Below, one piece after another: positions 17,264-20,808 of a stretch of DNA of 33,568 bases; position 1 is the first letter of the stretch; each line of letters starts with the position of its first letter. Location: NCBI RefSeq assembly GCF_004359965.1, contig NZ_SMRQ01000024.1, positions 1 to 33,568 of the forward strand, written 5' to 3'. The translations under genes and the position numbers were made by a program. Origin of the DNA: Cognatilysobacter segetis. Lineage in GTDB: Bacteria > Pseudomonadota > Gammaproteobacteria > Xanthomonadales > Xanthomonadaceae. The notes beneath the pieces were generated by a model. The model did not search any database. It saw only the letters and a list, made by a program, of their open reading frames with translations, and had not been told where the DNA came from.

Positions 17264-17351
17264 CGTCCGGGCGCCGGAGACGACAGGGCGCGTACCGGGT
17301 ATGCACGCTGCACGGCGCAGGCTGGGCGGCCCGTCCGCCCGAGCCGCGCGC

Positions 17352-17855
17352 ATGAACGCATCGACGACCTCCGCACCCGCGCACGACGACCGCGCGATGT
17401 ACCGCCGCTTCCTCGCCATGGTCGCCACGTCGACCGCGGTGATGTTCGTGCTGACCTACCTCACCACCTACCGCGCCGACCACGTCTTCTTCATCCAGAC
17501 GCGCATGTGGATGGCGCTGGTGATGGGCGCGGCGATGGCGCTGGTGATGCTGGGCTTCATGCGCCACATGCTGACGGACGGCCGGCGCAATACGGCGATC
17601 GTCGCCGGCGCGGTGGCCGTGTTCGCGCTCGCGCTGTGGCTGGTGCGCAGCCAGGCGACGGTGGGCGACGCGGCCTACCTGCGCGCGATGATTCCGCACC
17701 ATTCGATCGCGATCCTTACCAGCCGTCGCGCGCACATCGAGGACCCGCGCGTGCGCCGCCTCGCCGACGGCATCATCGCGGCGCAGGAACGCGAGATCGA
17801 CGAGATGAAGGCGTTGATCCGCGATCTCGACGACGGCGACACGGCCGCCCGCTGA
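17352..17855 (+). CDS. DUF305 family membrane protein
   Basis: The 167-residue protein has three spans (about 21-40, 52-70, 82-98), then a DUF305 segment: AYLRAMIPHHSIAILTSRRA (109-127) with H116-H117, followed by the amphipathic helix LADGIIAAQEREIDEMKAL. In DUF305 proteins the M-I-P-H-H motif lies in a ferritin-like four-helix fold, and many members occur near copper-handling genes. The second Met/His set of longer homologues is missing, so only half of the usual domain is present. Metal binding is plausible but not shown. There is no strong ribosome site; the start is the first Met after a proline/arginine-rich stretch. Confidence 0.85.
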   Translation: MNASTTSAPAHDDRAMYRRFLAMVATSTAVMFVLTYLTTYRADHVFFIQTRMWMALVMGAAMALVMLGFMRHMLTDGRRNTAIVAGAVAVFALALWLVRSQATVGDAAYLRAMIPHHSIAILTSRRAHIEDPRVRRLADGIIAAQEREIDEMKALIRDLDDGDTAAR

Positions 17856-19584: not shown

Positions 19585-19998
19585 CTAAGTCCCCGAGGCC
19601 GCGTCCTCGAACGTCGCCAGGATCGGGCAGGGGCCCGCAGCGTCGCCCGCGCAGCGCGACGCCAGCCGCCGCAGCCCATCGCGCGCACGGGTGAGCTCGT
19701 CGATCTTCGCGTCGAGCGCGGCGACGCGCTGCAGCGCGAGCGCGCGTGCCGGCGCGCGATCGTCCGCGGCGTCCAGCTCAAGAAGGCGCGCGATCCCTTC
19801 CAGCGTGAAGCCCGCGGCCTGCGCGGCGCGGATGAAACGCAGGCGGCGCACGTCAGCGTCGCCGTAGCGGCGCACGCCGGCCTCCGACCCCGCGCCGCGC
19901 GACGGCAGCGGCAGCAGCCCGCGGCGCTGGTAGTAGCGCACCGTTTCCACGCCGACGCCGCCCGCGCGGGCCAGCCCCGCGATCGTCATGTCGCCCAT
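19585..19998 (-). CDS. MerR-family transcriptional regulator
   Basis: The 137-residue protein has the MerR winged helix-turn-helix (MTIAGLARAGGVGVETVRYY at 4-23, then RRYGDADVRRLRFI), a coiled-coil dimerisation helix (about 82-113) and a short C-terminal loop with C116 and C124 in CAGDAAGPCPIL. These align with Cys117 and Cys126 of Tn501 MerR, but the first metal ligand (Cys82) is missing: residues near 80 are DDRAPA. A three-coordinate Hg(II) site is therefore unlikely, and a two-cysteine thiol or soft-metal sensor is more plausible. It is divergent from the glutaredoxin-MauE gene, and a mer-type operator begins 3 bases beyond its start. Met4 is an alternative start. Confidence 0.9.
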   Translation of the reverse strand: MGDMTIAGLARAGGVGVETVRYYQRRGLLPLPSRGAGSEAGVRRYGDADVRRLRFIRAAQAAGFTLEGIARLLELDAADDRAPARALALQRVAALDAKIDELTRARDGLRRLASRCAGDAAGPCPILATFEDAASGT

Positions 19999-20000
19999 GC

Positions 20001-20032
20001 TTGACTCCGTACCGTGGTACGGACTCTAGCCT
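20001..20032 (+). promoter_or_regulatory. MerR-type promoter/operator with overlong palindromic spacer
   Basis: TTGACT (20001-20006, -35) and TAGCCT (20027-20032, -10) are 20 bases apart, 2-3 more than the usual optimum. The spacer holds the palindrome CCGTACC-GT-GGTACGG (20007-20022). Overlong spacers with a central dyad are the hallmark of promoters that MerR proteins activate by untwisting DNA. The -35 and left arm (TTGACTCCGTAC) are the same as I recall for the merT promoter. The regulator is encoded on the opposite side. Confidence 0.85.
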
Positions 20033-20061
20033 GTGTCCGACCCCGTCACGGACCCGTCCCC

Positions 20062-20808
20062 ATGAACGCCATCGCCGCCCGCCACGCCACGCTCCATCGC
20101 ATGGTCATGCCGACCCACACCTGCCCGTTCGGGCTGAAGGCGCTCGACCTGTTGCGCCGCCGCGGCTACACCGTCGACGACCGCTGGCTGACCACGCGCG
20201 ACGAGGTCGACGCGTTCAAGGCCGAGCACGGCGTGGCCACCACGCCGCAGGCGTTCATCGACGGCGCGCGCGTCGGCGGCTACGACGACCTGCGCCGCTT
20301 CTTCGGCCAGCGCGTGCGCGATCCGAAGGCGACCAGCTACCGACCCGTCGTCGCGCTGTTCGCGATGACCGCGCTGATGGCGATGGCGCTGAGCCAGGCG
20401 GTATTCGGCACGCCGGCCACGCCGCGCGCGCTGCAGTGGTTCATCGGCCTGTCGATGTGCGTGCTCGCGCTGCTCAAGCTGCAGGATGTCGAGCGCTTCT
20501 CCAGCATGTTCCTCGGCTACGACCTGCTCGCGCAGCGCTGGGTGACGTACGCCTCGCTGTATCCGTTCCTCGAAGCCACCGCCGGCGTGCTGATGGTGGC
20601 CGGCGTGCTGCACGCGGTGTCGATCCCGATCGCGCTGGTCATCGGCGGCATCGGCGCGGTGTCGGTATTCAAGGCGGTGTACATCGACCGGCGCGACATC
20701 AAGTGCGCCTGCGTCGGCGGCGACAGCCGCGTGCCGCTGGGCGCCGTGTCGCTCACCGAGAACCTGATGATGGTCGGGATGGCGCTGTGGATGCTGGTCG
20801 CGGGTTGA
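20062..20808 (+). CDS. Glutaredoxin-MauE/DoxX fusion membrane protein
   Basis: The first 85 residues form a glutaredoxin-like domain: MPTHTC21PFGLKALDLLRRRGY, then TTPQAFIDGARVGGYDDL (60-77) as the glutathione-contacting region. Its active site has a single cysteine (CPFG), a monothiol form. From about residue 94 there are four spans of the MauE/DoxX type, ending IKC215AC217VGGDSRVPLGAVSLTEN, a CxC turn typical of redox-associated MauE-like proteins. The likely role is thiol or electron transfer across the membrane, or detoxification of a thiol-reactive agent. It is the sole gene downstream of the mer-type promoter at 20001-20032. No merT, merP or merA is present. Confidence 0.88.
   Translation: MNAIAARHATLHRMVMPTHTCPFGLKALDLLRRRGYTVDDRWLTTRDEVDAFKAEHGVATTPQAFIDGARVGGYDDLRRFFGQRVRDPKATSYRPVVALFAMTALMAMALSQAVFGTPATPRALQWFIGLSMCVLALLKLQDVERFSSMFLGYDLLAQRWVTYASLYPFLEATAGVLMVAGVLHAVSIPIALVIGGIGAVSVFKAVYIDRRDIKCACVGGDSRVPLGAVSLTENLMMVGMALWMLVAG

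Follow-up and report, generated by a model that had tools for sequence, protein, structure and literature searches.

The divergent gene pair analyzed here raises the question of which signal is perceived by a MerR-family regulator that faces a promoter of the mercury resistance type, and of which task is fulfilled by its single target, a glutaredoxin fused to a MauE-type membrane domain (Grx-MauE). The pair is located in a 33,568-nucleotide stretch of Cognatilysobacter segetis DNA (contig NZ_SMRQ01000024.1), this whole stretch being referred to below as the window. Judged on sequence comparisons, the pair probably constitutes a one-target copper-stress module, in which a MerR of the mer type, its response shifted to Cu(I)/Ag(I), would drive a relative of the Sinorhizobium meliloti protein SmGrx3.

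The divergent pair and its home genome

The open reading frames of the window place the two genes as a divergent pair (Table 1). The regulator scored 64 bits with the Pfam model MerR_1 and 58 bits with MerR-DNA-bind, and the target exceeded the cut-offs of both Glutaredoxin (25.3 bits, cut-off 22.9) and MauE (46.8 bits, cut-off 27). An alternative GTG start at position 20014 gives a longer target ORF and falls within the operator; the ATG at 20062 was preferred because relatives of the target align from there.

Table 1 Features of the window, with positions counted from its first nucleotide
Feature	Position	Strand	Basis
MerR-family regulator gene, 137 aa	19585-19998	-	Open reading frame and Pfam
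Grx-MauE fusion gene, 248 aa	20062-20808	+	Open reading frame and Pfam
DUF305 protein gene	17298-17852	+	Pfam DUF305, 42 bits
-35 hexamer TTGACT of the target promoter	20001-20006	+	TTGACT in 63 of 71 MerR-linked loci
Operator CCGTACCGTGGTACGG	20007-20022	+	6-bp arms the same as in the R100 mer operator
Likely -10 hexamer TAGCCT	20027-20032	+	Putative; 20 bp after the -35 hexamer; weak by itself

A homology search of the window returned no match to a mer gene, in agreement with the initial annotation, in which merT, merP and merA had been described as missing. In the home genome (2.9 Mb, assembled in 133 contigs) no MerA was found above the cut-off of 454 bits, the top three matches reaching 331, 294 and 278 bits, and a search with a CueR model retrieved this regulator as its only match. 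The genome encodes one other MerR_1 protein, which we take to resemble the one usually located next to ihfA. Other metal-type MerRs and MerA are thus likely to be absent from this genome, as represented by its 133 contigs. Another contig carries PcoA (991 bits) together with CopB and a CopA-type ATPase.

A mer-type operator in a 20-bp spacer

The initial annotation had likened the -35 hexamer, the left operator arm and the 20-bp palindromic spacer to those of the mercury operon. The hexamer and the left arm do correspond, and the likeness extends further on the right, since the arrangement TTGACT-CCGTAC-N4-GTACGG has both of its 6-bp arms in common with the merR-merT interval of the R100 mercury operon (TTGACTCCGTACATGAGTACGGAAGTAAGGT); the spacer length, by contrast, differs, being 19 bp in R100 and 20 bp in the window and in most relatives, with the choice of the -10 hexamer being the analyst's. 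Most relatives have TATATA, CATATA or similar hexamers at the -10 place. A sigma-70 scan, the spacer limit of which (18) lies below the 20-bp spacer, reported no promoter here.

The operator occurs once in the window and in none of 100 shuffles, and, when up to three mismatches are allowed, at one place in the genome, where it is read again from its own opposite strand. It forms part of an inverted repeat of 18+18 bp with 83% complementarity and 2 bp between the arms. Across the 71 MerR-linked loci, the arms are kept at 12/12 bases in 55 and at 11/12 in 15; L202 is the one locus where no such arms were found. A stricter operator pattern is present in 67. The operator is not a product of chance because its arms are kept in 70 of these 71 loci. 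The four central bases, considered position by position, lean towards CATG, CATA or TATA in the linked set, and read ATGA in R100 and CGTG in the window. A stretch of S. meliloti 1021 pSymA carries the same divergent MerR with a degenerate operator (TTGACTCTGTACCATGCTACGG).

Conservation and distribution of the pair

Target relatives numbered 279 by protein search of species genomes, the best 80 of which were examined, and a relative was present in 299 of 72,556 plasmid records. Within the family of the window, 17 of 149 genomes gave a match (15 near full length and two glutaredoxin-sized only), and in the phylum sample 54 of 398 genomes were positive, 36 of these 54 belonging to another class of the phylum. 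The pair was also encountered in Sphingomonas, Sinorhizobium, Shinella and Legionella, some copies standing alone and others lying inside copper islands. Two sphingomonad-like loci, L039 and L049, come from assemblies titled Arthrobacter sp. TPD3018 and Tolypothrix campylonemoides, which are possibly contaminated or misnamed.

The regulatory wiring of the target was recorded in 120 loci, composed of the best 80 of the 279 and of 40 phylum-sample loci, one per genome, which represent 40 of the 54 positives and leave out the home genome (G000) and 13 lower-scoring ones. Considering that the best 80 of 279 include near-copies, dereplication was applied for the strict counts given below. A MerR relative is divergent from the target in 70 of the 120 loci and located 1.4 kb away in one more. 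A CueR-like gene is divergent from the target in two loci, and a CsoR-like gene is located upstream of or divergent from it in seven, all among the 40 phylum-sample loci. No regulator was recognised next to the target in the remaining 40, four of which carry a CueR-type box. In L198, L201, L203, L208 and L209 the CsoR-like gene directly precedes the Grx-MauE gene in the same orientation, a layout which differs from that with the divergent MerR. The proposal of a conserved sensor and membrane-redox pair, distinct from mer operons and governed by a mer-type operator, is thereby upheld, both the pair and its palindrome being kept in relatives and beyond the family of the window.

Other genes near the same operator

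Within the same family, the operator was found with at most one mismatch in 44 of 149 genomes. Among 29 operator loci that were opened, 25 match merT, merP, merC or merA, three contain Grx-MauE, and one (L158) has an adjoining P-type ATPase and a MerR that retains Cys82. The one-mismatch operator at L158:1501-1522 with its flanks, close to this P-type metal ATPase, represents a third kind of gene near the operator. In three genomes (G007, G021 and G066), the Grx-MauE pair coexists with a mer operon. In addition, the operator accompanies MerR-MerT-MerP in many genomes of the family (2.1-3.0 kb stretches L132, L135, L137, L143, L144, L147 and L149-L156); none of these stretches contains a full merA match, and they possibly represent a mercury-type uptake set without a reductase close by.

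A mer-type reading head with an altered metal site

In a tree of 77 regulators, the Grx-MauE-linked MerRs form a single clade (support 100/99), which sits with mercury MerRs and with MerRs adjoining merT-merP, and which is separated from CueR and other regulators by a branch with 99/91 support. Regulators shorter than 100 aa were left out of these comparisons, as were, for the tree, nine named duplicates and rows more than 88% identical; except for R100, the mer-type rows used for comparison had been retrieved through the operator, so that they share it by construction. When the DNA-binding half was analyzed separately, the linked regulators grouped with mer (99/96) and their joining to CueR was rejected (p = 0.023), in keeping with mean identities, across 41 linked regulators, of 54% to R100 MerR, 35% to E. 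coli CueR and 41% to ZntR. The candidate explanation of a CueR that drifted onto a mer box was rejected on the same p value. For the sensor half, the corresponding identities are 24%, 26% and 25%, and the tree does not separate the CueR and mer placements (p = 0.505); this half may equally have been swapped in from a CueR or have diverged in place.

The window regulator has Arg81 at the place of mercury-MerR Cys82, and its loop reads Cys116-x7-Cys124-Pro-Ile. Of the three mercury ligand cysteines (82, 117 and 126), the first is consequently replaced by Arg and the other two are present, as the initial annotation had recognised, though their spacing is C-x7-C and not the C-x8-C of R100 MerR. 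Position 82 is occupied by Arg in 71 of 73 linked rows (60 distinct sequences), by Lys in one and by His in one, and by Cys in none; both later cysteines are kept, spaced as C-x7-C in 71/73 and followed by Pro-Ile in 73/73. Cys82 and C-x8-C are found in all 26 mer-type comparison rows, and C-x7-C-P-I in all eight CueR rows, which at the Cys82 place have Ser (six) or Asn (two, both annotated CueRs). Nine 'other' regulator rows all have Cys82, and five of them have C-x7-C, among them the one from L088, which belongs to the Methylobacterium mer operon there. For this reason C-x7-C was dropped as a mark of copper when taken alone, and the copper claim is based on the missing Cys82 and C-x7-C jointly.

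Neither equivalog cut-off was reached by the regulator, which scored 96.9 bits with TIGR02051 (Hg(II)-responsive MerR; cut-off 150.85) and 91.9 bits with TIGR02044 (CueR; cut-off 147.4); a sequence search of solved structures matched mercury MerR, CueR and CadR. Features of both classes are therefore combined: the divergent genes enclose a mer-type operator, yet neither the window nor the MerA search of the genome provides the accompanying merT, merP or merA, and the two-cysteine C-x7-C loop without a third cysteine is that of CueR, yet the divalent-excluding position holds Arg and not Ser, the operator is of mer type and the clade is a separate one. By the sequence tests made, the regulator falls into neither of the two classes. 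In MerR sensors, Ser at this position is associated with monovalent and Cys with divalent metals (PMC11591864), and a Ser77Cys substitution is described as opening CueR to divalent metals (PMC11591864; PMC7911910). As read from the alignment, Arg is a third state at the selectivity position, to which the Ser/Cys rule does not carry over. A degenerate mer operon was also considered as an origin of the locus and rejected, since no MerA scored above the cut-off in the genome and Cys82 is missing in 73/73 linked rows.

Copper genes around the target and alternative copper-sensor wiring

Neighbourhoods of up to ≈6 kb on each side of the target were searched with copper query proteins drawn from annotated target neighbours and from E. 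coli, a choice which tunes the search to such islands. With pumps and CsoR not counted, a copper family was found near the target in 45/80 loci from species genomes and in 18/40 from the phylum sample; among 20 controls there was one such case, the controls being single stretches from 20 of the 40 sampled genomes, mostly on large and probably chromosomal contigs. Mercury genes were found near 1/80 and 0/40 targets and in 0/20 controls. A strict count, for which DUF305 and CueR were also excluded and loci were dereplicated at 90%, gave 25/74 against 0/20 controls (p = 9e-4), and 9/33 for MerR-type loci only (p = 0.009); at 80% dereplication the values were 18/46 for all loci and 6/18 for MerR-type loci. 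Within the same ≈6 kb on each side, 24 of the 33 dereplicated MerR-type loci lack a strict copper family, and 7 of 12 MerR-type phylum-sample loci are without a copper family of any kind. Besides the regulator, PcoA is the commonest labelled neighbour family (20/74 loci; 7/33 MerR-type), followed by CopB (15/74); some unlabelled neighbour clusters (the largest covering 15, 15 and 11 loci) are as frequent as CopB, and one of them overlaps the target on the opposite strand.

Twenty annotated plasmid neighbourhoods, picked by hand, were inspected as well, and 14 of them contain copper-named or copper-type genes. These comprise a copper-binding protein and an RND pump (L086), CueR (L087, L088, L093, L097, L098 and L103), CopC/CopD with a copper oxidase and CopB (L095 and L102), a copper oxidase with CopB (L099) or without it (L105), a CopA-family copper-resistance protein in a cyanobacterium (L100) and copper resistance protein B (L101), L091 being counted for a pump named only CusA/CzcA. 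No copper gene is annotated in the stretches L089, L090, L092, L094, L096 and L104, and in L088 a mer operon is located ≈4 kb from the target.

The target is also connected to other sensors. On two Methylobacterium plasmids it is divergent from an annotated CueR, with TTGACCTTACTATGATGGGAAG upstream, a sequence close to the E. coli copA box TTGACCTTCCCCTTGCTGGAAG, and CueR-type boxes precede 5 of the 120 loci and occur in none of the shuffles. The CsoR-like neighbours retain Cys, His and Cys at the positions which we take to bind Cu(I) in CsoR. At least seven switches among MerR, CueR and CsoR-like wirings are implied by a quick target tree confined to rows with an assigned regulator, in which 13 plasmid rows were assigned their state manually and the CueR state of some rows was taken from the box alone. 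Copper, or else another monovalent coinage metal, is the candidate signal suggested by the copper neighbours, by the rewiring to CueR and CsoR-like regulators and by a CueR-type loop combined with the loss of Cys82. The initial suggestion of a 'thiol-reactive metal or electrophile' is in this light too open, although electrophile sensing keeps a small probability.

In the window itself, the homology search identified DUF305 as the sole copper-linked neighbour family, with 50% identity between this protein and a DUF305 encoded in a copper island. This family is recurrent in copper islands, and the window copy lies 1.7 kb from the regulator, separated from it by DUF1428, YdcZ-like and lipocalin genes. 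It is no more than a possible associate of the module.

The Grx-MauE protein

The target consists of an N-terminal monothiol glutaredoxin (H19-x-C21-P-F-G) followed by five predicted helices of transmembrane length, with C215-A-C217-V-G-G between helices 4 and 5. Its earlier description as a membrane redox protein with a CPFG active site and a CxC turn is borne out by the motifs HTCPFG and KCACVGG and by the Glutaredoxin and MauE domains; membership of the Grx-MauE type was assigned on both domains scoring above their Pfam cut-offs and on the monothiol CPxG and membrane CxC. His19, Cys21, Gly24, Cys215, Ala216, Cys217 and Gly220 are invariant in 142 sequences, one from the window and the others from 141 loci that extend to a cyanobacterial one (42%), and Pro22 is kept in 140; matches under ≈200 aa had been left out, by which none of the 141 loci was lost.

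An AlphaFold2 model (mean pLDDT 89.8, pTM 0.73) shows an N-terminal alpha/beta domain at residues 8-80, with strands and helices ordered as in glutaredoxins, and helices at 94-115, 121-140, 161-180, 184-208 and 228-247, the CxC being placed in the loop 209-227, where the confidence of the model is lower. A sequence search of solved structures with the head matched glutaredoxins. The loops between helices contain two and four Lys/Arg on the glutaredoxin side and none on the opposite side, where they are five and three residues long; because these residues occur only on the glutaredoxin side, the head and the CxC probably share the cytoplasmic face in the modelled protein. The three invariant cysteines and the histidine would fit a thiol relay or a Cu(I) relay. 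Glutaredoxin-sized relatives of the head (53-63% identity over ≈70-83 aa) were noted in L126-L130 without a matched MauE part, including a copy in the home genome (G000:C16:10746-11015, L129).

The literature search, from which subscription papers mostly fall outside, covered the MerR and Grx-MauE pair and Grx-MauE in copper or mercury resistance, and found a single article that treats such a protein (PMC6315971). In the accessible text of that article, SmGrx3 is described as having low deglutathionylation activity and no assigned function, and an S. meliloti Smgrx3 mutant as showing no defective phenotype; copper is not mentioned in this text. The target is thus of a known but unexplained protein type.

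Discussion

In the probable reading, that of a one-target copper-stress module, the mer-like DNA-reading half of the regulator most likely still binds the mer operator in the over-long 20-bp spacer, and its sensor half would offer a two-cysteine, CueR-like site with Arg where CueR has Ser77. For the regulator, the most likely signal is Cu(I), together with Ag(I) and perhaps Au(I), and not Hg(II). Spacer distortion upon metal binding is the established mechanism of MerR activators, and here it would allow RNA polymerase to start the Grx-MauE gene. At the membrane, the product would most likely act on Cu(I)-glutathione or on thiols damaged by copper, its head taking Cu(I)-glutathione or glutathionylated cysteines and exchanging with the CxC pair (Cys215 and Cys217). 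A bolder version, considered rather unlikely, would be a natural sensor swap in which Arg in place of the third Cys makes a mercury-type MerR responsive to Cu(I), possibly to Cu(I)-glutathione with Arg holding the carboxylates, and in which the target represents a new copper-defence class, a membrane-anchored glutaredoxin passing Cu(I) from glutathione to the CxC at the inner face.

Since the target is a glutaredoxin and many loci have no copper neighbour, the regulator might instead use its Cys pair to sense thiol oxidation, electrophiles or an imbalance of glutathione, with conserved Arg perhaps lowering the pKa of the nearby thiols; general thiol repair by the glutaredoxin would then place it in copper islands through the thiol stress which copper causes. 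Such a role is nevertheless unlikely, in that a C-x7-C-P-I loop without Cys82 is the pattern of the CueR rows, and in that the target is found elsewhere under CueR and under CsoR-like proteins keeping Cys, His and Cys. A two-cysteine MerR that still senses mercury or organomercury, driving redox repair of Hg-blocked thiols, would agree with the mer-type operator and DNA-binding half, and two-thiolate sites are described as binding Hg(II) tightly; the same source, however, reports that the two cysteines of CueR bind Hg(II) without activation (PMC6899792). Considering also the lack of Cys82 in all 73 linked rows, the rarity of mercury genes near the target (1/80 and 0/40 loci) and a best MerA match in the home genome of 331 against a cut-off of 454 bits, continued mercury sensing is considered unlikely.

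A sensor specific for Ag(I) or Au(I), monovalent like Cu(I), and not for copper would be compatible with the loop, the sequence of which does not tell Cu(I), Ag(I) and Au(I) apart, and CueR is described as responding to all three (PMC6899792). It is nonetheless very unlikely in view of the neighbours, which include PcoA, CopB, CopC, CopD, DUF411, CueR and CsoR-like genes, and of the 20 annotated stretches, where sil- or gol-named genes were not found. On the evidence of sequence, the regulator most likely operates in the manner of CueR, as a copper switch with a reading head of the mercury type.

On the copper reading, SmGrx3-type proteins, present in 54 of 398 sampled phylum genomes and functionally unsolved according to the accessible text of the review, would gain a concrete and testable function. 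Were Cu(I) to be the metal, mercury and copper sensors of a single bacterial family would share their operator arms, and cross-talk and its avoidance could be studied in the three genomes (G007, G021 and G066) that carry both.

Among known systems, the Hg(II)-responsive MerR and mer promoter of R100 resemble the present locus in the CCGTAC/GTACGG arms, the TTGACT -35 hexamer and the divergent layout, and differ from it in that the window has Arg for Cys82, C-x7-C, a 20-bp spacer and no mer gene. With CueR, the regulator has in common the two-cysteine C-x7-C-P-I loop, the lack of a third cysteine and the copper-island setting of many relatives, whereas its clade is a different one, its operator is of the mer type and not a CueR box, and Arg is found and not Ser77. 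A counterpart of the target is SmGrx3 (SMa0280), which shares the Grx-MauE architecture; the pSymA relative in L085 is 69% identical, has CPYG and faces the same divergent MerR, and its identity with SMa0280, in an unannotated record, is assigned by replicon and motifs. The accessible text on SmGrx3 names no regulator (PMC6315971). GigT, a DoxX-like protein for which an action on Cu(I) with oxidised glutathione is proposed, is encoded in the gig operon of Cupriavidus metallidurans, which copper and gold induce (PMC10304878). Like the target it is a small multi-span membrane protein, in a unit that is copper-induced there and putatively so here, and it differs in belonging to another operon and in that no glutaredoxin domain is mentioned in the available part of that source.

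A parallel to the regulator is a chimera constructed in B. subtilis, in which residues 1-38 of MerR were joined to residues 37-135 of CueR and placed on a mer promoter. According to the accessible account, copper elicited no response from the unmodified chimera; once three residues had been substituted, Cu and Ag were effective and Hg was not (PMC10028694). The chimera combines a mer-type reading head with a two-cysteine copper sensor, as is proposed for the present regulator; it differs in being man-made and in keeping the Ser77 of CueR, where the natural proteins described here have Arg. The linked clade would then represent a natural counterpart of the engineered conversion of a mercury into a copper sensor, with Arg and not Ser at the selectivity position.
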